Source: Bdellovibrionota bacterium
GTDB lineage: Bacteria; Bdellovibrionota; Bacteriovoracia; Bacteriovoracales; Bacteriovoracaceae
Direction of reading: 5' to 3'
NCBI GenBank assembly: GCA_030828105.1
Contig: JAURDE010000005.1
Span: 1-39,013 of the forward strand
DNA: 39,013 nucleotides
Shown: piece by piece, positions 8,065-31,304 of the stretch
Layout: each line of letters begins with the position of its first letter
Position numbering within the stretch: position 1 is the first letter of the stretch
Made by a program: the position numbers and the translations under genes
Notes under the pieces: model-generated
The model's database searches: none
Seen by the model: the letters and a program-made list of their open reading frames with translations, nothing else
Told to the model about the DNA's origin: nothing

Positions 8065-8781
8065 ATGTCCAATTTTGAAATAATAACAACTGATGATGGA
8101 TCACCTTCGGTGTACTCAAAAATATACTCAGAGGCCTGTCATAACCTCTCTGGTGCCTATCAAGAAACCCTCTATAACTTTGTACAAGGCTGTGAAATTA
8201 ATAAACTTGATCATAGGCCAATTAAAATCCTTGAAGTTGGTTTCGGTACCGGTATGGGTTTTATTTGTACTATCGAAAATTGTCCTAAACCCATACGCTT
8301 TGTCTCATTTGAAAAACACGAAGAAATGGTCGAATTAGCAAAAGAAATTCATCCCCTCTACAAAGATCTGCGTAAGGTACCGGGAGGATATGGACTACAG
8401 GCTGGTGAAAGTGAAATCCTTATTCTCATTGGCGATGCTCGAGATAGAATAAAAGAAATTAAAGAGCAATTCGATGCCATTTACCAGGATGCTTTTTCAC
8501 CCCGTAAAAATAAAGAATTATGGACAAAGCAGTGGTTTAAAGACCTTTATAAACTCTCCCACGACAAAACTATACTCTCTACCTACAGCTCATCAGTCTC
8601 CATCAGAAAGGCCCTTATTGAATCAGGCTGGTTACTTTCTAACCGAAAAGGTCATGGAAATAAAAAACTGGCCACTATTGCAAAAAGGACAGGAGAAACT
8701 GATAAGGAAATCATAGAAAAACTCAAGCGCTCAAGTGTAGAAGCTCTCTCTGATGAGATTATCTCCTTCCCTCCAAATTAA
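8065..8781 (+). CDS. mnmD: tRNA 5-(aminomethyl)-2-thiouridine methyltransferase-like protein (MnmD/MnmC N-domain)
   Basis: This matches the SAM-dependent methyltransferase domain found as the N-terminal half of MnmC and as stand-alone MnmD. That enzyme completes the 5-methylaminomethyl modification of wobble uridine 34 in tRNA. Seen: SAM-binding EVGFGTG (57-63), the family signature QDAFSPRKNKELW (141-153), and TYSSSVSIRKALIESGW followed by GHGNKKLATIAKR. At 238 residues it lacks the FAD oxidoreductase half of MnmC, so the aminomethyl substrate must be made by MnmEG directly. No strong ribosome site precedes the ATG. It overlaps the end of the convergent gene by 23 bases. Confidence 0.85.
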   Translation: MSNFEIITTDDGSPSVYSKIYSEACHNLSGAYQETLYNFVQGCEINKLDHRPIKILEVGFGTGMGFICTIENCPKPIRFVSFEKHEEMVELAKEIHPLYKDLRKVPGGYGLQAGESEILILIGDARDRIKEIKEQFDAIYQDAFSPRKNKELWTKQWFKDLYKLSHDKTILSTYSSSVSIRKALIESGWLLSNRKGHGNKKLATIAKRTGETDKEIIEKLKRSSVEALSDEIISFPPN

Positions 8782-9742
8782 TAGGAAAGTGAGCAAATTG
8801 GATGGGCACTCCTTTAGATGAAGAGTAATCAATTATTTTTTCTAAGGCTTTTTCTACTCTTGGGAGATATCTTTTGGCCGTTTCTAAATGAAACCCCGTA
8901 ACAACATAATGAACAGGTTTAGGGTTTCTCAAAAACTCATCAACATTATCCTTAAGAGTTCGAAAAATAGTATTAGGTTTTGTATAATCTGCAAGGCTGG
9001 CATTATTTGGTAGCTGCCAAATTGGTTTATGTTCCGTTTTCATTAAGTAGGGTTGCTTGACAGTACTCATTCCAGGCCAAAGCCTATTGATAGACTGTAC
9101 CAATAAGGAAGACTTACCCCAAGAGCGTGATACAAAATAATCAACTGTAGCGGAGCTATCTAAATAAAAACCTTCTCTTGATAAGGCCGTGGCCACTGTA
9201 GGACCTGTTTGCCAGGCCCCCGAACGAAAACTTTTTGGCCTACTAAATCCATTTTTCACTAAAATCTCATTGCTTTTACGAATGATTTTTTGCATCTCTT
9301 CAGCACTATAGGCCGTCAAAGAAACCACGTGGCCACAATCAAACTGACAATTTCTTAAACTCCAACCACCCAAGTCAGGCTTGGTCTTAAACTTTACTCC
9401 AGAGGCCTCTACTAAAGACTTCCAAGCGTGAATATGAAGGCCGTGCTCATCATGTTTTCTCATAACTGATTTTATTTTTTTCGTAATCTCAGCAGCGTTA
9501 GCATCAGGCTTAGTATAGTAGGCCGCATTTAAAAAGTGCAAAATAGGTATACCTGGATACTTATTTCTAAATGCTTTAAGCGCCTCTAGGTTCTCTTTAC
9601 TAAGTTCCCTTCCTTCCCAGTCTATAGTCATAACAATAACGACATTGCCTTTTTTAAACTTGGACTCATTAGTAAATCTAGAACCAGCACCAAAAAGAGT
9701 AGAGGAAGCAAAAAATAGTATAAGTATTAAGTTAATTTTCAT
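8759..9742 (-). CDS. Exported polysaccharide deacetylase-like (NodB/CE4-like) protein
   Basis: A signal peptide (MKINLILILFFASSTLFGA) is followed by a domain with motifs in the order of NodB-type deacetylases: TIDWEGR (39-45; compare T-(V/F)-D-x-E), GLHIHAWKSL (101-110; the H-x-H metal region), a SFRSGAW segment corresponding to FRAPG, and a late GFHLETAKR. Such enzymes remove N-acetyl groups from amino sugars. The 30399 gene is a paralogue without a signal peptide. The gene starts three bases after the stop of the papain-like protease gene, and its AAAGGT ribosome site lies inside that gene's end, so translation is coupled. The substrate is unknown; peptidoglycan or surface polysaccharide are possibilities. 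The relation to CE4 is inferred from motif order and is remote. Confidence 0.65.
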   Translation of the reverse strand: MKINLILILFFASSTLFGAGSRFTNESKFKKGNVVIVMTIDWEGRELSKENLEALKAFRNKYPGIPILHFLNAAYYTKPDANAAEITKKIKSVMRKHDEHGLHIHAWKSLVEASGVKFKTKPDLGGWSLRNCQFDCGHVVSLTAYSAEEMQKIIRKSNEILVKNGFSRPKSFRSGAWQTGPTVATALSREGFYLDSSATVDYFVSRSWGKSSLLVQSINRLWPGMSTVKQPYLMKTEHKPIWQLPNNASLADYTKPNTIFRTLKDNVDEFLRNPKPVHYVVTGFHLETAKRYLPRVEKALEKIIDYSSSKGVPIQFAHFPINLEGRR

Positions 9743-16219: not shown

Positions 16220-17260
16220 ATGGAAGATCAAGCTCATTTATGGCCAAAAAGAAAACAGCATAAAATCTGGCTAGATCAATACTTTCACAATTGCTTAATT
16301 TTAAATAAATCAGCGCATACATTAAAAAACTATAAAGCTGATCTTCACAAGTTTTTTACTTGGTATGAAAACAACTATTTAGGCCTCATCCACCAAGCAA
16401 ATGGGGACACTATTTCCCATTACCAAAACTTTTTATCTAAAGGTGGTACAGTTTTGGCCAAGGTTCCATTAAAGCAAAAAATGGGCCTAGGCATAAAGAG
16501 ACTTATTAATATGGCCATATTCAAAAAAGTCGAAAAATCCTTACCTCAAATTGTTTTAGATCAAGGCCCTTTATCGGTTACCTCAAGAAGAAGACATCTT
16601 TCATCAGTTAAAAACTTTTTTGAATTTCTGAAACAAAACTATGAAGATAAGAACAAGATTTTTCAGCATAACCCCGTCAAAAACAAAATTCATGGAATTA
16701 GATTAAAAGAAATTGATGTAGAACATACAGAAATTCTCAGATCAAGAGATTGGCAAAAACTTCAAGAGGTAATTACCAGCTCGCATGACAGGGCCATGGT
16801 CCACCTTCTTTATTTTGGTGGATTTAGACTACAAGAACTATCTCAACTCAAATGGGAAGATTTCAATTTTGATCGCTACAAAGTCTACTTAGAGAGAAAA
16901 GGTGGCTATAGACAAACTCTAGAGTTAGATAATGGCCGTAAAGTATTTAACCAACTTGAATATATTAGAAGACAAAAAGGCTATCTTTTTTCACATGACG
17001 GAAATCATCCTTATACGACAAAAACCTTATATAATAGAATCATGAAGCTTTTTAAAAAAGCACAAGTAAATCCAAAACTCACCCCGCATAGTTTTAGAAA
17101 AGCATGTGCTACTAATATTTATTTAAAAACAAAAGATTTAATCTACACCAGAGATTACCTTGGGCATCATGATGCCAAAGTCACGCAAACATATATTGAT
17201 CCCGAAACTGTTCACGGGGTTACGCCAAAACTTATGGAATTAAAGGAGAATATTCTATGA
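16220..17260 (+). CDS. Tyrosine recombinase (XerC/XerD-like)
   Basis: A 346-residue site-specific recombinase. The core-binding SAM-like domain (about 14-145) is followed by the catalytic domain with every key residue: Arg203 (GGFRLQELSQL), Lys227 (ERKGG), His290 and Arg293 (HSFR), His316 (LGHHDAKVTQ) and nucleophile Tyr325. Xer proteins are usually about 300 residues; the extra length is an inserted basic segment around 76-112 in the N-terminal domain. It overlaps the next gene by four bases (ATGA), an unusual partner for a recombinase. It could be the chromosome-dimer resolvase or an orphan integrase; no att repeats or phage genes were seen nearby. Confidence 0.85.
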   Translation: MEDQAHLWPKRKQHKIWLDQYFHNCLILNKSAHTLKNYKADLHKFFTWYENNYLGLIHQANGDTISHYQNFLSKGGTVLAKVPLKQKMGLGIKRLINMAIFKKVEKSLPQIVLDQGPLSVTSRRRHLSSVKNFFEFLKQNYEDKNKIFQHNPVKNKIHGIRLKEIDVEHTEILRSRDWQKLQEVITSSHDRAMVHLLYFGGFRLQELSQLKWEDFNFDRYKVYLERKGGYRQTLELDNGRKVFNQLEYIRRQKGYLFSHDGNHPYTTKTLYNRIMKLFKKAQVNPKLTPHSFRKACATNIYLKTKDLIYTRDYLGHHDAKVTQTYIDPETVHGVTPKLMELKENIL

Positions 17261-17876: not shown

Positions 17877-17910
17877 AAGATGGTGGTGGAGAGTCCTTCA
17901 TCACCATTTT
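17877..17910. terminator. Bidirectional terminator between barrel and fibre genes
   Basis: GATGGTGGTG (17879-17888) pairs with CATCACCATT (about 17899-17908) using two G-U pairs, around a 10-nt loop. T-rich runs follow on both strands (TTTTAGTTTT on plus; TTTCTGAAAAATTTT on minus). It sits between two convergent stop codons. Confidence 0.7.
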
Positions 17911-20900
17911 AGTTTTGGATATTTAAAATCGCCTCTATTTTTTCTAGCCTGGCCTTAAGCTCTAAATTCTCTTTTTGTAAACGCTCATTTTCTTCTTCAA
18001 GCGATGCCACTCTTCGCTCTATCTCTTCCCAAGCACCTTGCATAACCTCAAGCTTGCGAATATTTTCCTCTATTTCCTTTTGCTGCTCTTGAGTTGCATT
18101 TATATGCGCCCAATGAATGGGATCCACATTAAGTTGAAGATAACCATTTTTATCTTCTGACACCGCTTCAGGAATAACCTTCTGTACACTTTGGGCAATA
18201 AAACCAACAATCTCTGGATCACTAGGCAGACCAATAGGATTATTCTTTTTATAATTAAACACAATAGGTTCTAAGTCCATTATCTGCTCAAGGCCGTTTT
18301 TATATGCACCTTTGATATCCTTTAATCTTTCATCTGAAGCATTTGTCCAGGCCGTACCCGTTGAAAGTCCAGCAGGGCCAACAACATGAAGAGAATAACT
18401 AGGTGTAAAGCTATTAAAGGCCGCTCCACCTGGAATTCCAACATTACCATTTTCTAAAATGATAAGACCCTCATTAACACCCGAATCAATATCATCAATA
18501 TCCCCTGTATCAATCCCAATAGAAAACCTTGCCGTATTATTAGCAATATTTCCTATCTTCCAACCTTTTTCACCTGTCACACCGTCCTCACCCTCATTGC
18601 CTGTATCACTAATTCCCATAGTTATGAAAACGGGATCATCATCAGGAGATAATGAATTATTTCTCAACATAAGAGAGACCGGACTATCGGCCGCGCGACT
18701 ACTTTCAATAGTCAGACCAGGAAAAACATCTAAACTATCCGACGTATTTGTATCGTAGATATGAAGCATTGATGTTGGCGTAGTCGCTCCAATACCAATT
18801 TCACCACTATTTAAAATTCTCATGCGTTCTGCTAGAGAAGTATCATCAACAGAAGTGCTAAAAGATAAATGAGCGCCATCAACTGATGAGTTTGCAGATG
18901 TCTGAAGACTTGATATTCTCGCCCCGTCATTTCCAAGGACATCAAAATCAATTTTTGCATTAACTTCATTAACGGTACCTCTAACACCATCTAGTGTTAG
19001 TTTAACGGAACCATCAGCATAATTTCCTGTTCCTTCAACCTTTATACCTTCTAAGGCAGCAGTCGATAGAATATGAAGTCTTTCTGTAGGGGCCGTTTTA
19101 TTGATCCCTATATTACCTGTTACATAAGCATTTCCTGAAACATGAAATTTTTCCTCAGGGTCATCTGTGCCAATTCCCACATTGCCTGAATCATGCTCAA
19201 TAGACACTAATTTTGTTAAGGACCCAAGATTATCAAATTGAATATGAAGATCATTAATATAATTCGCATTACTAAAAGCATTACTATGGGCCACTATCGA
19301 CCAACCCCTCGTGGCCACATCTTCGACTTGCTTACTACCATCACCTTGAGTCATTAGAGTCAGTGAAGAAGTCTGATTAACCTGGTCGCCGGAAGTATCT
19401 ATAATAATCTCTGAATCATCATCTGCAGTTTGGTAAATATGGATATTTTCAACTGGAGCACTCGAGCCTAGGCCTAAATAACCAGTAGACGCCAGTCTCA
19501 TTCTTTCACTAAGAAGATCAGGAGTTGCTACAGTATCACCACCAGCAAAAACGAGATCACCAGTAAATGTTGTACTATTATCACCCGTGAACTCTTTAAA
19601 TATTGACCACACATGTGTGTTATCTATATTTTTTAGAGAAAGCCCAATGTCATCGAAATTATCCGTTGGTCTTAGAGCTATAGTTGCTCTTCCATCTGTA
19701 TTGGTTACGTAGTCAATAGGCTTAATTTCTATTGTTGAGCTTGGGTCAGATACGCCAATACCAACTAACCCATTTTCATCTATGATCATCCGCTCTGAAC
19801 CAGCTGTATTAAAGCGAATTTTATCCTCATCGGGGTTGGCCTCAACGTTAACATAGGTATCTTGGTCAATATCTCGAGTTTGGGTTATATTAGGACTTCC
19901 GGTAAAACTCAAATTTCCTGCACCATCGGTTATAAGGATATTTCCAGAACTTCCATCCACAGAAGGGAGAGTATATATTGTATCAGAGGCCATACCTGTT
20001 GGAGCTCTTAAACCTACATAGTTTGTAGCATTATCAGTTCTTAAATGCATTTCACCAACTGAAGTGTCATCACCTATTATTGTATTTCCTCTTATATCGA
20101 ATTTGGCCTCAGGTATAGAGTCTCCAACCGTGATATTACCTGTAGGCATTAACTTGAGCGCAGTCGTATAAGTTTGTCCGCCATACGACTCAGGACCTGA
20201 GGCACCAACTTTTAGCAATAATCCATCTTCCGCACCACCGGCCGTAAACACTGTCTGACTAGCATCAACGGTAACATACCAGTGATCACTAACATCTAAT
20301 GCTTGTCCACCTATTGTTGCTGAAGGTCCTAGATCTAATTTAAGCTCTGGACTAGAAACCCCTAGACCAACTCTATTATTTATAGAATCTACAAATAATG
20401 TATCATTATCAAAAGTAATGTCTCCACTTCCTTTAATTGTCATTGCTGTATTCAAAGTACCAGCATTATTAGTTTTGAAGTTTAAATCTCCTACTTCTGC
20501 ACCATCGGTTGCATCAGAAAGAACGGCCTCGATCATAGCAATGGATTCAGGATTTCCGGCATCATCTTCAGTAGCAAAATTCATAGAAGCACCAATACCA
20601 CTTGATCCATTGCTACCGCTGTTTTCATGAGAAACCGTCAAGACATTTGTTACTCCAGAACTTAAATCGCTCTTTCTTATATCAACTACACCGGATCCAT
20701 TTGATGTCAGCACCAAATCTCTATCTGTAGATACTTCTGTATTTGTAGTTATGGTATTATCATTTATTTGAACTTCATCAAAATCTGCCATTCCTGTTGT
20801 TGTTTGAAAGTTTGTCGCAAGAACGGTACCGTTAACATGCAGTTTCTCTGTTGGTACATCAATACCAATTCCCACATTTCCTGTATCATAAGAAATATTT

Positions 20901-23437
20901 AAATGTTTTGTTGGTGTACCAGAATCATAAAAGTAAAAAGATAGATCGTTAATATCATCTGGAACTGAATAGGAGTTGGATCTCGCTATTATAGACCATC
21001 CCTTGACTGAGGCATCTGATACTTGCTTATTTCCATCGCCTCCATCTGTAATAAAAGATAAGCGAGATGACTGAGCTGGGTCAGTCCCTGGTGTATCAAG
21101 AAGTAGCTCTACCCCGGTACTGGCCGTTTTATAGAGGTGTATATCTTCTTTAGGAGTGGCCGTACCAACACCAACTCGACCATCTGATGTAAATCGTACT
21201 CTTTCAGCTAAATTTGCTGGATCTGCCTCTGGGGCCCCTCCTGCAAAAACAAGATCGCCTTCAAAAGTTGAAATATTATCTCCGGTAAAGTCTTTAAAGA
21301 TAGACCATACATGTTCACCATTATTATTATTTAAAGATATTCCAATATCATCTTCATTATCTGTCGTCTCAACTGATAACGAAGATCTTCCATCGGTATT
21401 GGCCAAGTAATCATCAGCTTTTAAATGAAAGATTGAGTTAGGGTTACTCGTTCCCACCCCCATATTTCCATTAACATCTATCGTAACCTGGGCGTTGACC
21501 GGATTCCATGCAGATGTATCAGCAAAAATCTTCAACTTATTTGCATCACCTTCATCTATTCCCATATACCAATTTTGTTCTACAACTGGACCCGGATCGC
21601 TACTTCTTAGTTGTAGAAAAACATCTCCATCTGCGTTTTCATTTTCTATAACAACCCCAGTATTGCTTTCACTAGACTTTACATGAAGCATTTGCTCAGG
21701 AAGTGTATTATTAACCCCTATATAGGCCATAGGTCCTGGGATTAAAGAAATATGGCCTCCCGTGGCCGCTTCATTTTCAATAGTAATAAATTCGTCTGGA
21801 GCTGCTTTAAACCCAAAAAGACCTTTTCGTGTAGTAGCACCATCTGGATAAAGTTCAATAAAAGAATGATCAGTTCCCTCTAAGCGCATAATAGCACCAT
21901 TTCCATTTACATGAAGAGGAACTTGAGGATCTGAGTTACCAAGTCCTAAAAAACCATTCGAATCTATTTTAAGAGCAGCACTATCTCCATCTCGATTAAA
22001 AATCGTAAATTCATTTTCTACATCTAAACCAATATCATATACAAAGACTGTATCTGCAGGATCAGTTCGATGAAACCTAAGCATTCTTCCTAACGTATCT
22101 GATCCAAAGGTTTTTCCATCCGTATCATCTTTAATGGTAATAGTGACATCATTTCCACCGCCGTCGCCGCCAGTGGCATCAGAGTCTGTATTATTGGCGG
22201 TAAAACCTCCTGCAAGACTATAGCCACCAACATTTAAAAGACTATTTCCACCTAGATCTAAATCGTTAGTCATAACGACTGAACCATCCCGCTTAAGAAA
22301 CTTTGTCAGCTCTCCGGCCAAATTGTCTCCCACTATATCTAATCCAGTTAACTCACAAAAACTTTGATTTGATACCGTACATGTTCCACTAGCAACTTGA
22401 CCGGCATCTAAACCAAAGCCTGCTGCTAAATCCTGTGTGGTGACTGTTCCATCAACAATCTTACTGGAGGTAATTGAGTTGTCTTGGAGTTTAGCGTTTG
22501 TTATCGAACCATCCGCAATTTTAGAGCTTGTTATCGCACTATCAGCAATATTACTGGTTGTAATTGAGCCCGCTGTACCAGACAGCACAGATCCCGGAAT
22601 CCACTTGCTTCCAGCATTATCCCAGATGAGGGCCTGACCATCTGTTGGTGCAGTTGTAGAAGTGTCAACATCATCAAGTTCATTAATACCAAATGTAACA
22701 ACTCCCTTTTTCCCAAAAACACTTGTCACCTCGTTGCTGTTAACAATTTTATCCCAACAACAACCTTCTCGATAAATCGCCCAGTCTCCAACATTCCAAT
22801 TAGATATTCCATCAAGATTAAAAGTACCGGCAACATTGACAACATAATAGGTTCCATTAGCGGGACTCAAAGTAGATATATCAGCACCACCTGCTATAAC
22901 TTGTCCCAGGTTAGCATCCCAAGTCCCACCAAAGATTAAGTTGCTTAGGGCTGCCGGTTCCCACTTATCAACACCTGCATTCCAACGCAGAACATCTCCA
23001 TCATTAGCGCCCATATTATTGAGCTTGATAGCGGTTATACTTTTATCAGAGAAATCAAAAAAGATTTGAAAAGTGGCCGAAGCATTGGCCGTATTTAAGA
23101 TTAAATTAAAAGTTTCACTTATAACAAAAGAGATTTGCTTAGAGGCATTGGCAATGATTTGTCTTGATTCTTGAGCTTCAATAATCATTCGATCATCTAG
23201 ACCTGGCCCATTAACTTGAAGTGTTTTTACGCGGTCAAGGTTTTGTCCTTGAATATAGAGTTGATTATTATAGATTTGAACACGGTCAATTTTTATACTA
23301 TTGTCCGTCGGTTTAAAGAAAGACTTTTCTATTCCTAAATTTGCATCATCACCTAACTTAATCGATCCACGATTACTTGGGTTAGGCAGACAACTAACCA
23401 ATAGAAATAATATAAGCAGATTTAAATTAAACTTCAT
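17909..23437 (-). CDS. Giant trimeric fibre lipoprotein with C-terminal S74 intramolecular chaperone
   Basis: An 1842-residue surface protein. It begins with a lipoprotein signal (LLVSC, Cys16), then a TIG-like domain (about 45-130) and phage-fibre-type modules (GDVLRWNAG, NVGDWAIYREG, SVFGKKGVVTF). A run of I-x-x-S-K-I-x-D-G-S hexad-like repeats (about 290-340) suits a triple beta-helix. Many NVGIGT-x-x-P-x-E-x-LHV-x-G repeats fill the long shaft. The end is an S74 domain: ASDERLKDI with the catalytic Ser1701/Lys1706 dyad, EIVGFIAQSVQKVIPEAV, and a final coiled coil (about 1785-1840). S74 domains trimerise fibres and then cut themselves off. ATG at 23437 preferred; a TTG lies one codon upstream. 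Comparable lipid-anchored chimeric fibres serve in prey recognition in Bdellovibrio; that role is inferred here. Confidence 0.85.
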   Translation of the reverse strand: MKFNLNLLILFLLVSCLPNPSNRGSIKLGDDANLGIEKSFFKPTDNSIKIDRVQIYNNQLYIQGQNLDRVKTLQVNGPGLDDRMIIEAQESRQIIANASKQISFVISETFNLILNTANASATFQIFFDFSDKSITAIKLNNMGANDGDVLRWNAGVDKWEPAALSNLIFGGTWDANLGQVIAGGADISTLSPANGTYYVVNVAGTFNLDGISNWNVGDWAIYREGCCWDKIVNSNEVTSVFGKKGVVTFGINELDDVDTSTTAPTDGQALIWDNAGSKWIPGSVLSGTAGSITTSNIADSAITSSKIADGSITNAKLQDNSITSSKIVDGTVTTQDLAAGFGLDAGQVASGTCTVSNQSFCELTGLDIVGDNLAGELTKFLKRDGSVVMTNDLDLGGNSLLNVGGYSLAGGFTANNTDSDATGGDGGGNDVTITIKDDTDGKTFGSDTLGRMLRFHRTDPADTVFVYDIGLDVENEFTIFNRDGDSAALKIDSNGFLGLGNSDPQVPLHVNGNGAIMRLEGTDHSFIELYPDGATTRKGLFGFKAAPDEFITIENEAATGGHISLIPGPMAYIGVNNTLPEQMLHVKSSESNTGVVIENENADGDVFLQLRSSDPGPVVEQNWYMGIDEGDANKLKIFADTSAWNPVNAQVTIDVNGNMGVGTSNPNSIFHLKADDYLANTDGRSSLSVETTDNEDDIGISLNNNNGEHVWSIFKDFTGDNISTFEGDLVFAGGAPEADPANLAERVRFTSDGRVGVGTATPKEDIHLYKTASTGVELLLDTPGTDPAQSSRLSFITDGGDGNKQVSDASVKGWSIIARSNSYSVPDDINDLSFYFYDSGTPTKHLNISYDTGNVGIGIDVPTEKLHVNGTVLATNFQTTTGMADFDEVQINDNTITTNTEVSTDRDLVLTSNGSGVVDIRKSDLSSGVTNVLTVSHENSGSNGSSGIGASMNFATEDDAGNPESIAMIEAVLSDATDGAEVGDLNFKTNNAGTLNTAMTIKGSGDITFDNDTLFVDSINNRVGLGVSSPELKLDLGPSATIGGQALDVSDHWYVTVDASQTVFTAGGAEDGLLLKVGASGPESYGGQTYTTALKLMPTGNITVGDSIPEAKFDIRGNTIIGDDTSVGEMHLRTDNATNYVGLRAPTGMASDTIYTLPSVDGSSGNILITDGAGNLSFTGSPNITQTRDIDQDTYVNVEANPDEDKIRFNTAGSERMIIDENGLVGIGVSDPSSTIEIKPIDYVTNTDGRATIALRPTDNFDDIGLSLKNIDNTHVWSIFKEFTGDNSTTFTGDLVFAGGDTVATPDLLSERMRLASTGYLGLGSSAPVENIHIYQTADDDSEIIIDTSGDQVNQTSSLTLMTQGDGSKQVEDVATRGWSIVAHSNAFSNANYINDLHIQFDNLGSLTKLVSIEHDSGNVGIGTDDPEEKFHVSGNAYVTGNIGINKTAPTERLHILSTAALEGIKVEGTGNYADGSVKLTLDGVRGTVNEVNAKIDFDVLGNDGARISSLQTSANSSVDGAHLSFSTSVDDTSLAERMRILNSGEIGIGATTPTSMLHIYDTNTSDSLDVFPGLTIESSRAADSPVSLMLRNNSLSPDDDPVFITMGISDTGNEGEDGVTGEKGWKIGNIANNTARFSIGIDTGDIDDIDSGVNEGLIILENGNVGIPGGAAFNSFTPSYSLHVVGPAGLSTGTAWTNASDERLKDIKGAYKNGLEQIMDLEPIVFNYKKNNPIGLPSDPEIVGFIAQSVQKVIPEAVSEDKNGYLQLNVDPIHWAHINATQEQQKEIEENIRKLEVMQGAWEEIERRVASLEEENERLQKENLELKARLEKIEAILNIQN
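19134..19780 (-). repeat. Internal duplication in the fibre gene, copy 2
   Basis: Encodes about 215 residues running from NGLVGIGVSDP through HVWSIFKEFTGDN, GDLVFAGG and GWSIVAHSN to GNVGIGTDDPEEKFHVSG. It matches copy 1 (20829-21480) segment by segment in the same order, with diverged sequence. These are shaft repeats of the fibre, not a mobile element. Confidence 0.8.
20829..21480 (-). repeat. Internal duplication in the fibre gene, copy 1
   Basis: Encodes about 217 residues from NGNMGVGTSNP through HVWSIFKDFTGDN, GDLVFAGG and GWSIIARSN to GNVGIGIDVPTEKLHVNG. It is collinear with copy 2. The two copies are separated by about 1 kb of other shaft sequence. Confidence 0.8.
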
Positions 23438-23713: not shown

Positions 23714-24580
23714 ATGTTAACAAAATGGGCCATCATATTCAGTTCACTTATTTTCTACTCATGCAGCATCCCCTCCGCTAAAACAAAAAAGGTAGAAAAA
23801 GAAACAAATCAAGTACCCGTTGAAAAACAAGAACCCGACTTAGAAGACGAAATCGATAAAATGCTTGAGTCCCCAGGTGAAAAAAAAATAGAGAAGCTTG
23901 AGAGACTGAAAAGCCGGAAAAAAGATTACACCCTAGATTTTTCTATATCATATGAAGGCAACTCTTTTGACGAAGATATAGACGGTGAAACTAAAATTGA
24001 AGGCAGAATGATAGGTGTTGGCGGTGAGCTTGAATATGGAAAAGAGCTCGATTTGGACTTTGATTTACTCGCTTATGCAAAGCTAGGACTTTATGGAGAT
24101 GCAGAATTTTCCCAAACAAGTAGATCATATACATCACCAAATACAATTTCACTCGGGGCCTTTCTTATCCACCGGACTTGGGATAGAGACATCAAACCAA
24201 TTATTGGTGTTGAAAGAGAGGAAATATCCTATGTAAGTGCTGACAAAGAAGTAGACCTTTCTACTGTCAATATTTTTGAACAGATCTCCGGCACAAAGGG
24301 ACTATTTTATAATGCTCTTTTAGGCGCCCAATACCACCATTTTTTATTTGATAGTAAAACGATTTGGACTTTTATGGCCGGGTTTTCTTTACTTGGAGAG
24401 GCCAATAGTAATAAAGGTGAACTAGAGCAAAGTTTAAATTCTTTTAAACTCATTGGTAAAGTTAAATGGAATTTCTCAGAAAGCTATTTTCTTGGTGGAA
24501 GATATCAGTATAGCTCCATCGAAGGTATTCGTAGTACCACATTCTATAATTATGCGCTTATTTTTGGGTTTAGGCTTTAA
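23714..24580 (+). CDS. Outer-membrane beta-barrel lipoprotein
   Basis: A lipobox FYSC (Cys17) is followed by a charged linker of about 55 residues rich in K, E and D, then from about residue 72 a barrel-like domain with alternating hydrophobic strands (YTLDFSISYEG, GRMIGVGGELEYG, LLAYAKLGLYG, GGRYQYSSIEG) and a C-terminal aromatic strand (YNYALIFGFRL) typical of outer-membrane proteins. The combination of lipid anchor, spacer and barrel is unusual. It is transcribed divergently from the giant fibre gene, and its stop shares the palindrome TTAA with the stop of the next, convergent giant gene. No family recognised; a role in holding or exporting neighbouring fibres is speculation. Confidence 0.7.
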   Translation: MLTKWAIIFSSLIFYSCSIPSAKTKKVEKETNQVPVEKQEPDLEDEIDKMLESPGEKKIEKLERLKSRKKDYTLDFSISYEGNSFDEDIDGETKIEGRMIGVGGELEYGKELDLDFDLLAYAKLGLYGDAEFSQTSRSYTSPNTISLGAFLIHRTWDRDIKPIIGVEREEISYVSADKEVDLSTVNIFEQISGTKGLFYNALLGAQYHHFLFDSKTIWTFMAGFSLLGEANSNKGELEQSLNSFKLIGKVKWNFSESYFLGGRYQYSSIEGIRSTTFYNYALIFGFRL

Positions 24581-27500
24581 TTACCAATGCTACATCCATT
24601 AGTAAATGCAGGTGAGCAAAGAATGGGAAATCCAACATCGCTATTAGATGAAGCACCTATCGGGTATTGATATTCTTCTGGTTCAACTCCAATTGAGTAA
24701 TTTACAACCTCAGAATTATTATTCAAAAGGTTTATAAGCACAGAGTCCATTTTATGTTTACCTTTATCATACCCTTCTTTACCATGCTGTATTGTAGGAA
24801 GATATTTAGACATCTTAAATGATTTATTATTTATATCTGTAACAGGTATCTCATTATTTATTTTTCTTGATATTCTATCATCACCATCAGCATCGACACA
24901 GTTTACATCCGCACCATCGACACAACCCACACGAATCACTTTAACCTCATTAAATGCATCCATCACACCAATAATAAGTGATTTATCTGTATCGCCTGCT
25001 GCTACATCAATAGCTTTTAAGTCTTTAAGGTCGAGATCATCTTCACCATTTTCATCATATAGGGATACAATTCCTCCGGAACTTATTAAAGATAAGTCAT
25101 CCTCTAAATAGGCCGCTTCATCTAGTTTTCTTCTTGCTATCATAAGCTCATTTTCATTCTGACTACTTGGATTACTTCCAGCGATGTATAAAAACTGATT
25201 ATTCGAGATAATTCCCGAATACCCCATTGAGAGTTCGAACTGATCCATAGAGTCTAAAACAAAAGGCCCTTTCTCATTAGCACCTTGAACCGCACGGGGA
25301 TCATTATCATTAATTCCATCACCATCCCAATTACTGGACCCAATTGTAACCTCATGTCCACGAATATCTATTTTTCCATCCTCTCTTTGAGTGGCCACAA
25401 TAAGTCGTTTCGTTGTGTTAAAAGTATCTAAAACATTTCTTACGCGAGTTCCTCTTATTCCAGAATTTAAGCGAACATAGTTACCATCAACATTATATGC
25501 TGCCTGAGCAGTCTCAAGAGCAGAATCACCTTCTTTTCCAAAAGCAAGAGCAACTTTGTTTTCATTAACGGTTTCTAAAAATGGCAAATACCATGCTTCA
25601 TCTGAAGCAACAATTTGACCTACTTGAGAAGCAACAATATCTAATTTTAAACATCTCTTACTTGATTCAATATTAGCTGGGTCACTATCTTTTGTAAGAA
25701 CAATAAATCTCATAAGAGGAGCACCAGTTGGTATTGTATCAACTTCAACAATCCGATAAGCAACAAATATATGGGAATCATTTCCTGTTATAGATATATC
25801 AAAAGGCGTTTCTTCCGCAGAGGGAGCCCCTGGTGCAGAACATACATTATCTGTAGGATCTGATGCAATACTAGTTGATTTGAAACTCTCTGTAAAAATC
25901 CCTTTATTATCTACATTAAATTTTTGAACAATAAGATTTGTTCCCACACTATGAACCGTCCAAACATCCATATCCTGGGTATCAAGATTAGCTATGGTTG
26001 AATCATCAATCCAAACATCATGACTTAAATCTGCAGAGGTTATATTTGGCAGCTTTCTTTCAGCTTTATTAATAAATCTAACAAGGCCAAATCCCGCAGA
26101 GCCTGACCAAACTCGATTAACAACACAGTCATCAACATTATTACCAATTCCATCATCGCCAACGCAGACTCTAAAGCAAACTTTATTATTGGCCGGGTCA
26201 AAAAGATTTGATCCATCAAATGGACTTGTCGAATTAGGGCCATAAAGTGAACTCGGTGGTGTCCACAACAACTTTGAGGGTTGGGCACTCGTTACTGTAT
26301 TAGAAAACTGTCCGACCGCCCCCTCAACATCTGTCCATGAGCTACCAGCAATAGAAGTGCAATCATTAGTTCCTGTTTGTGAATAAGTCTGCCACTTATA
26401 AGTAATATTAGTTCCATCACCACCAGCAGGTGATGCATCAGTTATATCACCTGGATAGAGAGAAAAAATGCGACCTTCAAATACGTTAAATATTCCATTT
26501 GTAAGAGGGTCTGGATCACCTGCTAAAACGGGTGCAGGGTTTGAATTTGTAATCGCAAGAACAAAATCTTGAGTTAAAGATTGAGGGTTTATTCCTACTC
26601 CGGGGACATCACTAATAACGACTCTAATCGTTACATTTTCTGTAGCATTATTAGCAGGTCCACCTTGAATAACACTCGTAGGAATTTGCCAAGATTGGTT
26701 ATATAGAATTTTTTCAGTAGGATGGGCGACGTTATTTTGAGTGATTGAAGGTATTGGAGTCCATGAACTATCTTCTATACCATTAACATATCCCTTATAA
26801 GACACCTCTACTTTGAATGTATCTCTTTCTAAGTCTTTAATGTAGAGGTTAAATGTAATTGTGTCACCTTCATCAGCTAAAGCAATCGCGGTAGTATTAT
26901 CTCCGGAATCAAAAATGAAGCTATCTGTATTAGCATTAAGCCCTGCTTGAGTGTTTCCTGGAGAAGGAGTTGCAGGTACAGGGTCTATTGTTGGGGCCGT
27001 ATTAGACTCACCAACATTAATACTCCACGTAACCTCGTTCGATATCCTTGAGGGGCCATCAGTGCCATTTGTCTGATTATCTGAGACGGTCGCCTTTATT
27101 ACATACTCTCCAGCGGCCACAGGAGATGTATTTCCATCATTATCCTCGTCATTATATGAAGGAAAACGCAATTTACAGATATTTTTACCTGAAACGGCCT
27201 CAGCAGAAGTATAAGTGCAGTCTGGATTAGGTACATCGGCCAAAAACCAATGAGGGTTACTACCGTCAATAGGACTAAAATTGGCCACGTTTGTACAATC
27301 CTTATCTGGAGTACAGATACTAAAATTAATTGCATAATCTGTTAAATTAAGTCCAGGAGAAACAGAGCTATCCTTATCTTTAATTGCAAGAGCAAAAAGA
27401 TTATCAGTTCCTCCGCCTTGGAAAATTCCGGCCTGTAAATTATCAACATTGTTTCCAGATTCATCTCTCTCTAAGATTGGTGCAGTATTTGCTGGGGTTA

Positions 27501-28926
27501 TAGTGATATTATCCCAGTGTACTTCCCCGACGAGTTGTCCACTTAATCCATCTATAACCTTGGCATAAATTTCTTTATTAGATGCCAATGCTAAACTATC
27601 TGCTGGTATTAAATTTTTTGAATAACTAGGATTACCATTTCCAGAAAGAGCACCATAACCACTTAAACATACCGGATCTGGGTTAGGTCCACCTTTAAAA
27701 GTTAAACGGTTGATTGTACCATCAGCGGTTATCGTCCTTCCATTTTCATCAAAAAACACAATATACACACCTTCTGAAGCAGAAAGTCCTGTACCATCTT
27801 CAATATAAACACAAAAATCATGAATGGGTGTACCCCTAGTAGTATCTGGGTTAGCATTCTGAGCGGGCGCTATGTAAAATCCAAAACGGTTATTTTCGTT
27901 AGAGTTCTCATCTAAAACATTCCCTGAAACGGAATGATAAAGAGTATTATCGCTAAAGATCCTGTCATTTGTAGGATCTTGAGTAAAATTACTAATCAGA
28001 ACAGATGGATCCGTAATCGCCGGAGGAGTGGTCCCTGTTATGGCCTTAGCACCAGTAACTTTAGTCGGTGGAGGATAACTAATTTCTATATCCCAGGTTT
28101 TTTGTAAAAAGATAGGGCCTGTTGGAGTTCTTCGTGCCTCAAGATAAAGGGTATGTTTTCCTTTAGGAAACTTTGTAAGATCTGCAGGATCTACGAGAAA
28201 ACTAATGGAAGGTCTTGAAGGGTAAGGTGAACTTGTTTGCTCTACTCCATCTAAAAACCATTTAATATAATAATCTACATTATCAGGGTTACTAACATTA
28301 CCAAAGATAGTGGGACGATCATCACTTGTGACCGTTGTCATTTTTAATGGTAGAGGGTCACAATTACCAAAGCTTGAAGGTGAACATACAAAGGAGAACG
28401 TAGGATCATTAAAATCATTTACAATAAAGCTCCAAGCTACGGACTCTACTAAGCTGTTATCCTTAGGATCAATGATAGAGCTTACTATAGTGTTAACCCC
28501 TAAAGGCCAAATATTGGAATTTGATACATCTACAAATAATGCACTTACTTGATTACTTTCAGTAAAAATATTAACCCCGTTACGATACCACTTATGGATA
28601 TAGTTTTCTCCGAGTGGATTATCTACAGCTATAAGAAGGTTAAATGGGCCTACACTTCTTTTAAACGGGCTAAGAGCATTTGTTGGCGTTTTAAATTGTT
28701 CTGGACTTGGCTTAACATTAAATGCTGCTATTCTGTGTGATACTTGCAACTTAGAAATTTTATTTACCTTATCTAGGAGCCCTTCTTCTGTAAGACCAGC
28801 TTTTTCGGCAGCTCCAGGTTTTTCAAGATCACCTGCAACACAGCCAACAAATAAAAAAGTGGTCAACATCAAAGAAAATGTATTCCTAAAAAAAGACTTC
28901 AAAATAGCATCCATATTCATATTCAC
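24577..28926 (-). CDS. Giant surface lipoprotein with Ig/cadherin-like repeats
   Basis: A 1449-residue protein with lipobox LFVGC (Cys29; GTG start at 28926, with ATGs two and four codons later also possible). After a linker come two Ig-like units with W-x-x-(N/D)-G-V cores (about 105-170 and 215-285). Further units open with NTAPIL, NTAPTI or NPAPVL, the usual entry to Ig/cadherin-like domains (about 480-840). Residues about 985-1380 are rich in strands and Asp-Asn turns (DGDGINDNDPR, CVDADGDDR, DENGEDD) that could bind calcium and may form a beta-propeller. Cysteines are paired within modules. The architecture is that of an adhesin or scaffold on the outer surface. It is divergent from the barrel gene at 29172 and ends on a TTAA shared with the barrel lipoprotein gene. 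No specific family recognised. Confidence 0.8.
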   Translation of the reverse strand: MNMNMDAILKSFFRNTFSLMLTTFLFVGCVAGDLEKPGAAEKAGLTEEGLLDKVNKISKLQVSHRIAAFNVKPSPEQFKTPTNALSPFKRSVGPFNLLIAVDNPLGENYIHKWYRNGVNIFTESNQVSALFVDVSNSNIWPLGVNTIVSSIIDPKDNSLVESVAWSFIVNDFNDPTFSFVCSPSSFGNCDPLPLKMTTVTSDDRPTIFGNVSNPDNVDYYIKWFLDGVEQTSSPYPSRPSISFLVDPADLTKFPKGKHTLYLEARRTPTGPIFLQKTWDIEISYPPPTKVTGAKAITGTTPPAITDPSVLISNFTQDPTNDRIFSDNTLYHSVSGNVLDENSNENNRFGFYIAPAQNANPDTTRGTPIHDFCVYIEDGTGLSASEGVYIVFFDENGRTITADGTINRLTFKGGPNPDPVCLSGYGALSGNGNPSYSKNLIPADSLALASNKEIYAKVIDGLSGQLVGEVHWDNITITPANTAPILERDESGNNVDNLQAGIFQGGGTDNLFALAIKDKDSSVSPGLNLTDYAINFSICTPDKDCTNVANFSPIDGSNPHWFLADVPNPDCTYTSAEAVSGKNICKLRFPSYNDEDNDGNTSPVAAGEYVIKATVSDNQTNGTDGPSRISNEVTWSINVGESNTAPTIDPVPATPSPGNTQAGLNANTDSFIFDSGDNTTAIALADEGDTITFNLYIKDLERDTFKVEVSYKGYVNGIEDSSWTPIPSITQNNVAHPTEKILYNQSWQIPTSVIQGGPANNATENVTIRVVISDVPGVGINPQSLTQDFVLAITNSNPAPVLAGDPDPLTNGIFNVFEGRIFSLYPGDITDASPAGGDGTNITYKWQTYSQTGTNDCTSIAGSSWTDVEGAVGQFSNTVTSAQPSKLLWTPPSSLYGPNSTSPFDGSNLFDPANNKVCFRVCVGDDGIGNNVDDCVVNRVWSGSAGFGLVRFINKAERKLPNITSADLSHDVWIDDSTIANLDTQDMDVWTVHSVGTNLIVQKFNVDNKGIFTESFKSTSIASDPTDNVCSAPGAPSAEETPFDISITGNDSHIFVAYRIVEVDTIPTGAPLMRFIVLTKDSDPANIESSKRCLKLDIVASQVGQIVASDEAWYLPFLETVNENKVALAFGKEGDSALETAQAAYNVDGNYVRLNSGIRGTRVRNVLDTFNTTKRLIVATQREDGKIDIRGHEVTIGSSNWDGDGINDNDPRAVQGANEKGPFVLDSMDQFELSMGYSGIISNNQFLYIAGSNPSSQNENELMIARRKLDEAAYLEDDLSLISSGGIVSLYDENGEDDLDLKDLKAIDVAAGDTDKSLIIGVMDAFNEVKVIRVGCVDGADVNCVDADGDDRISRKINNEIPVTDINNKSFKMSKYLPTIQHGKEGYDKGKHKMDSVLINLLNNNSEVVNYSIGVEPEEYQYPIGASSNSDVGFPILCSPAFTNGCSIGN

Positions 28927-30398: not shown

Positions 30399-31304
30399 GT
30401 GAAAATTAAAGTCATAAACACAGTCGATTGGGAAGGCCGCTGTCTAGAAGAAGAAAACCTTGTGGCCATGGAAAAGTTCAATGAGCTTTATCCTCATATA
30501 CCTACTCTTCACTTTATGAATGCGGCCTATTTTACCAAAGGCCTTGATAATAGTTTTGTAGAAGAAAGAATTAAGCGTGTTATTAAGAAAAATGACCTTC
30601 TCGGTCTCCATATCCACTGCTGGAAAAGCCTTGTGGAAAAAAGCGGTCTTGATTTTCGATTATCTCCAAGCTTTGTATTTGAAGAAGGTATACCTAAAGA
30701 AGAACTTCAAAAAAGCGATTGTGGCCATGACCTAAGTCTAAGTGCTTATAATAAGTCTGAGATCAAAAAGCTTATTAATACAAGTGAGAGTATCCTAAAA
30801 AAGTATAACCTTCTCAATTGTTCTTTCTTTCGTGCTGGGGGATGGATGGCAAACGAGGAGGTCCTAAAAGCTCTTAAAGAGTGTCATTACACACATGACT
30901 TTTCAGCAGTACCCCCAAAGCTTTTAGAGGGAAAAAGAAAAAATGAAACACTCTATAAAATGCTTGAACCTCTATGGGAAAAGATTGACTCTTCCACAAC
31001 GCCTTATCAGATAATACCTGGCCTATGGGAGCTACCAAATACAGCATGTCTGGCCGACTACATGACTGGTCCAGACTTCCTCAATGTCTTTAAAGATATC
31101 TCTTCTTCTAAAAATGAGGATTGTCTTTTTATTATGGGCTTCCACCAAGAAACGGCCCATAGATTTATTGATAGGGTTATTGATGCCATAAACTTGATCG
31201 AATCTGAAAACGCAGAAATATCTTACGATCTTAGCTTCTTACAGCCAACCCAAGCTTCCAAAAGTGATAAGGGAGATAATCACAATACCCCATTGAATCC
31301 CTAG
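30399..31304 (+). CDS. Cytosolic polysaccharide deacetylase-like (NodB/CE4-like) protein
   Basis: A 301-residue paralogue of the exported protein at 8759-9742. The shared blocks appear in the same order: TVDWEGR, LHFMNAAYFTK, GLHIHCWKSLVEKSG, DCGHDLSLSAYN, FFRAGGW, LWELPNTACLADY and GFHQETAHR. It has no signal peptide: the GTG start leads straight into the first catalytic-type strand, so it should act in the cytoplasm. The ribosome site is weak and the gap from the barrel gene is 18 bases, consistent with read-through. The last 66 bases (a low-complexity tail after SFLQPTQ) overlap the 3' end of a convergent membrane-protein gene, as if the original stop was lost. Enzyme activity is inferred from motif order. 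Confidence 0.65.
   Translation: MKIKVINTVDWEGRCLEEENLVAMEKFNELYPHIPTLHFMNAAYFTKGLDNSFVEERIKRVIKKNDLLGLHIHCWKSLVEKSGLDFRLSPSFVFEEGIPKEELQKSDCGHDLSLSAYNKSEIKKLINTSESILKKYNLLNCSFFRAGGWMANEEVLKALKECHYTHDFSAVPPKLLEGKRKNETLYKMLEPLWEKIDSSTTPYQIIPGLWELPNTACLADYMTGPDFLNVFKDISSSKNEDCLFIMGFHQETAHRFIDRVIDAINLIESENAEISYDLSFLQPTQASKSDKGDNHNTPLNP

Follow-up and report, generated by a model that had tools for sequence, protein, structure and literature searches.

Within a 39,013-nucleotide stretch of DNA (the window) from a Bdellovibrionota bacterium of the family Bacteriovoracaceae, an organism known as an assembly of 253 contigs, a single open reading frame encodes a protein of 1842 residues. The locus raises the question of what kind of fibre this protein forms and what would hold such a fibre on the cell. 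A sequence-only reading had proposed a surface fibre assembled from phage-type parts, anchored by a lipid and ending in a self-cleaving S74 chaperone, with relatives among the chimeric trimeric fibres of Bdellovibrio. Our analysis supports this reading at the sequence level, as regards architecture, phage-type parts, S74 domain and Bdellovibrio kinship, and extends it to the base on which the fibre would stand.

Architecture of the fibre gene

The fibre gene (1842 codons plus stop; 17909..23437) is intact and lies on the minus strand, which the earlier reading had not specified; it runs from an ATG at 23437 to a stop at 17911-17909, and all parts listed below are on the same strand. The protein starts with a signal peptide and lipobox (residues 1-16, LVS-C16; 23390..23437), kept in all base-sharing relatives inspected, and continues with a lineage-specific, predicted Ig-like base domain (residues 47-128; 23054..23299). 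The phage-fibre modules noted from sequence extend over residues 137-345 (22403..23029), where tblastn matches to phage long tail fibres coincide with PHROG tail-fibre profiles, the latter matching the protein with E-values of 4.6e-40 (phrog_18345) and 2.4e-32 (phrog_9942). Hexad repeats of the ITSSKIADGS type, likewise noted before, were found at about residues 288-345 (22403..22576), also with PHROG tail-fibre matches. The shaft that follows (residues 346-1590; 18668..22402) consists of beta-helix modules with capping-loop motifs. The NVGIGT-x-x-P repeats already pointed out are the published capping-loop consensus of mosaic adhesive trimer (MAT) fibres, and the ten matches to this motif (VGIGTxxPxxxLHV type) in the protein, against 0.04 expected (1000 shuffles, maximum 2), are not due to chance. 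A direct segment comparison revealed a feature not noted before, namely 50% identity over 226 residues between residues 650-875 (20813..21490) and 1216-1440 (19118..19792), and the unusual length of the protein—almost twice the usual MAT length of ~1000 aa—can thus be ascribed in part to this duplication of the shaft.

Residues 1591-1700 (18338..18667), placed by alignment to the tip of the Bdellovibrio fibre Bd3182 (8ojn), would form the tip of the mature fibre and reach up to a predicted cleavage site. Beyond it, the S74 chaperone-protease (residues 1701-1795; 18053..18337) was recognized by PF13884 (Peptidase_S74; 41.5 bits over residues 1701-1759, cut-off 22, E 1.6e-10) and carries the Ser/Lys dyad S1701-D-E-R-L-K1706. 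A C-terminal coiled coil (residues 1796-1842; 17912..18052) was assigned from the sequence, with leucine-zipper-like Pfam matches below the cut-off. The S74 domain, its dyad and the trailing coiled coil are therefore where the sequence-only reading had put them.

Other features of the window were recorded as well. A second giant protein of 1449 aa is encoded near the fibre gene (24577-28926, minus strand); its start is lipobox-like (FVGC), and neither Pfam nor NCBIfam gave it an assignment above cut-off. Two similar proteins at 8759-9742 (minus strand) and 30399-31304 (plus strand) have a DWEGR...LHF.NAAY.T motif in common; only one of them has a signal-peptide-like start, and the product of 30399-31304 had no Pfam match. 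No RNA families or tRNAs were found in the window. At the inspected loci of relatives, no exporter gene was conserved beside the fibre gene, and a conserved operon or export partner was rejected, since the window neighbours did not recur there, with the exception of one weak match.

An S74 tip shared with Bdellovibrio MAT fibres

Bdellovibrio HD100 encodes 21 MAT proteins, 13 of which have a C-terminal S74 domain (PMC10769870), and for one of these, Bd3182, cleavage at S782 has been shown experimentally and is lost in the S782A variant (PMC10769870). As read from the HD100 genome, which was recognized by its 100% match to the Bd2133 fragment, Bd3182 has 922 aa, with the serine of its SDxxxK motif at 782. 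The best PDB sequence matches of the fibre protein were Bdellovibrio MAT fibres, namely 8ond (Bd2133) and 8ojn, and the protein shares 48% identity with Bd3182 over its final 168 residues, S1701 falling opposite S782; both the proposed kinship with the Bdellovibrio fibres and the identity of the S74 domain as a self-cleaving chaperone are thus upheld at the sequence level. Moreover, the C-terminus showed 52% identity over 183 columns to another HD100 MAT and 53% identity over 207 columns to a protein of Bacteriovorax sp. BSW11_IV that has the same base. Given the experimental demonstration of S782 cleavage and its block by S782A in Bd3182, we strongly infer that the fibre protein cleaves itself before S1701.

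The likeness to the S74 subgroup of Bdellovibrio MATs, represented by Bd3182, extends over the SDxxxK-type S74 tip, the capping loops and the beta-helical shaft. However, a beta-rich base of ~130 aa directly after the signal peptide is common to all 21 HD100 MATs (PMC10769870), and the fibre protein has no such domain; it has a lipobox instead of an ordinary signal peptide. Because this defining base was searched for and is absent, we do not class the protein as a MAT member: the S74 domain and capping loops of the S74 subgroup are present, whereas the MAT base after the signal peptide is not. The sequence is best read as that of a MAT-like fibre whose base is a different, probably lipid-anchored one, i.e., a variant of the MAT adhesin platform.

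A base of its own, with a putative lipid anchor

The proposed lipid anchor was examined in the fibre protein and its relatives. In the fibre protein, LVS-C16 follows a PROSITE PS51257-type rule, with the cysteine at position 16, a lysine within the first seven residues and six uncharged positions before the box. Our survey covered the 36 base-bearing ORFs in which the start could be read, corresponding to 35 distinct proteins (L053 and L113 are one gene): a strict lipobox filter was passed by 34 of the 36, the other two—the fibre protein among them—conformed to the PROSITE-type rule, and a lipobox was present in all 35 distinct proteins inspected. None of nine HD100 MATs had one. By its lipobox and charged n-region, the fibre protein qualifies as a predicted bacterial lipoprotein and SPase II substrate.

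Two kinds of base were then compared by means of sequence profiles: A3, built on the MAT base of HD100, and A1 and A4, alignments of the family to which the fibre N-terminus belongs (hereafter the lipo-base); a further alignment, A2, yielded just two loci. Profile A3 matched 19 ORFs in HD100, where MAT N-termini consist of an ordinary signal peptide and then an LTYQGRI-type base, and found no place in the genome of the fibre protein. In a survey of the phylum (369 genomes), matches to A4 were present in 54, of which 48 belong to Bacteriovoracaceae and 6 lie elsewhere, with no match in the sampled Bdellovibrionaceae, and A3 matched in 118, including 58 Bdellovibrionaceae and 6 Bacteriovoracaceae. 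Within the class, the lipo-base was found in 47 of 128 genomes, and a single genome had as many as 15 matches; named members bearing it are Bacteriovorax sp. BSW11_IV and Bacteriovoracaceae bacterium UBA6166, both in Bacteriovoracaceae. A homologue of the fibre protein in BSW11_IV (L115, 5214-9197) is 1327 aa long.

These data bear on the reading of the protein as an ordinary MAT, with an N-terminal base that has diverged beyond recognition rather than been exchanged for another module. In favour of this reading, MAT kinship is plain outside the base, and the two bases are alike in being beta-rich. Yet the profile-profile comparison of A1 with A3 gave a probability of just 1.1%, by which the two bases appear unrelated; each base is internally well conserved, with motifs of its own; the signals differ in type (lipobox versus ordinary signal peptide); and the two distributions are near-exclusive. 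We consider simple divergence improbable and retain the reading of a different base.

Modelled in isolation, the lipo-base was predicted as a seven-strand sandwich (mean pLDDT 85.8); a joint prediction with the phage-type modules reached a pLDDT of 52.9 and was discarded in favour of the isolated base. Foldseek returned weak Ig-like matches, with TM-scores of up to 0.62 for plexin chains and 0.63 for an IPT-annotated phage protein. An IPT/TIG-type fold seems likely, though only tentatively so: the predicted seven-strand sandwich resembles these Ig-like domains, but the region had no Pfam match and the model no Foldseek match below E 1e-3.

Other arrangements were seen as well. The genome of the fibre protein encodes a second lipo-base S74 fibre of 1404 aa (L033; G000:C62:5395-9609), of a different S74 subtype (36% identity). 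A lipo-base protein of 2029 aa (L044; G007:C5) combines a lectin-like tip with ~8 repeats of the module matching fibre residues 1120-1180; its genome contains no RVT_1 gene. Finally, five S74 proteins, each about 870-910 aa long, are encoded in tandem (L052; G013:C141:1871-17998); at least three of them start with a type IV prepilin-like signal (GFSLVQLMIGIGLTGFLVLIM), these S74 fibres being apparently mounted on pilins as another kind of base.

Phage parts in a cellular gene

Phage S74 fibres and tailspikes, such as the endosialidase type and the L-shaped fibre of T5, share the S74 chaperone-protease and the fibre modules with the protein, at 28-38% identity in phage records. What sets the gene apart is that it is cellular and encodes a lipobox and a base without phage matches: in tblastn searches of phage records, long tail fibres matched from about residue 137 on, and since the matches begin only there, that collection contains no phage relative of the lipo-base. 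The view that the gene is a prophage fibre or a remnant of one, and not a cellular surface protein, could invoke the S74 and tail-fibre modules together with a nearby tyrosine recombinase. Against it stand the lipobox and the phage-unmatched base, the neighbouring genes, which include metabolic genes and gave no phage structural matches, and the recurrence of the base in the 48 Bacteriovoracaceae genomes at non-syntenic chromosomal places. A prophage origin was rejected for want of phage structural neighbours, and we regard it as highly improbable. The recombinase gene (16220-17260, plus strand), near the 3' end of the fibre gene, is XerC/XerD-related, with scores far below their cut-offs, and is followed by an outer-membrane beta-barrel gene. 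Inversion of the tip by this recombinase was likewise rejected, the inverted repeats being imperfect (at best 90% over 20 nt) and located outside the fibre gene.

Exchange and diversification of tips

A phylogenetic tree of 31 S74 domains placed the tip of the fibre protein in a clade with 100/99 support, together with two lipo-base proteins of BSW11_IV, one HD100 MAT and one protein with another type of N-terminus. Grouping all lipo-base S74 tips into a single clade was rejected, at a cost of 214 log-likelihood units (p-AU 2e-65). The tree indicates that S74 tips cross between the lipo-base and the MAT base. With tips from both bases mixed in this way, the MAT logic of one fixed and one variable end holds, and the fixed end also differs between lineages.

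Other lipo-base relatives carry lectin-like tips ending in ALRGGxW...GFRC, and seven such genes have an RVT_1 gene downstream (G056:C92, G059:C21, G061:C10, G061:C11, G068:C227, G084:C104 and G114:C11). Template and variable repeats could be compared at the five of these seven loci with unmasked sequence, the variable region being masked in G059 and G114. In all five—L043 (G056), L122 (G068), L132 (G061:C11), L134 (G084) and L135 (G061:C10)—the 3' end of the gene pairs with a downstream repeat over 119-139 bases, and of the mismatches, 15/15, 14/18, 14/14, 18/19 and 16/16 (together 77/82) are at template adenines; the chance probability for the three loci with a perfect count ranges from 1e-11 to 3e-14. 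As the mismatches are almost confined to template A, we read the five loci as diversity-generating retroelements (DGRs), with the lectin-tipped lipo-base genes bearing the signature of their targets.

The fibre gene itself was rejected as a DGR target, its genome having no RVT_1 gene and the gene no template-like repeat. In the HD100 family (27 genomes, with few RVT_1 genes), none of these was found beside any of the MAT base matches listed. Lipid-anchored variable proteins with a C-type lectin fold are diversified by DGRs in Legionella and Treponema, and the retroelement-linked relatives would likewise display a C-terminal recognition module on a predicted lipid anchor; the fibre protein differs in its S74 tip and in having neither template repeat nor RVT_1 gene. 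Among open-licence papers, we found no report linking DGRs to Bacteriovorax or to predatory bacteria; in the MAT paper, this retroelement is named solely in a reference title (PMC10769870). Varied tips on one base, some of them diversified by retroelements, are as expected of a display platform. On balance we lean, with some reserve, towards a broader proposal: that the lipidated Ig-like base is an adhesin-display platform of Bacteriovoracaceae replacing the MAT base, with freely exchanged tips and, in several species, a lectin-like tip hypermutated by DGRs.

Proposed mechanism and function

Domain order, homology, the conserved lipobox and catalytic residues, the distribution of the base and the sharing of tips are best explained as a whole by a lipid-anchored, MAT-like fibre with a self-cleaving S74 tip and a swapped base, a reading in which we have good confidence. 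Under this reading, the protein would be exported and lipidated at C16, tethering its N-terminus to the outer membrane, and three chains would wind into a long beta-helical rod of about 0.1 micrometre, as scaled from the published model of Bd3182. The S74 domain would act as a trimerization chaperone and then cut before S1701; with ~142 residues released, residues 1591-1700 would become the exposed adhesive tip at the surface. On its lineage-specific lipidated Ig-like foot, the fibre might thus adhere to prey or other surfaces much as the S74-class MAT fibres of Bdellovibrio do in prey recognition.

All that is known of the organism is an assembly, in a family that contains predators, and we therefore go no further than to call prey attachment plausible. 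Bacteriovoracaceae include cultured obligate predators (PMC4511183). Several of their genomes lack the lipo-base, and the genome studied here is an uncultured assembly, so that a lipid-anchored fibre serving general attachment, biofilm formation or cell-cell contact has some claim to attention. This role seems to us possible but doubtful: among homologues with data, those nearest to the protein are prey-recognition fibres (PMC10769870), and Bacteriovorax sp. BSW11_IV, an obligate predator (PMC4511183), has seven base-bearing genes, one with a tip 53% identical to that of the fibre protein.

Implications for adhesion in predatory lineages

What holds MAT fibres on the predator surface was left open in the paper that defined them (PMC10769870). 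The protein described here comes from a sister lineage, with tips about half identical and an explicit lipid-anchor signal, and makes MAT anchoring testable through C16 and S1701 mutants and base swaps. Additionally, its family ties the adhesins of a predator-containing lineage to retroelement diversification in at least five genes. If the display platform with DGR-diversified tips is real, new recognition specificities would evolve on the very anchor that holds this S74 fibre; and should the tips turn out to bind prey, retroelement diversification would amount to accelerated evolution of prey range.
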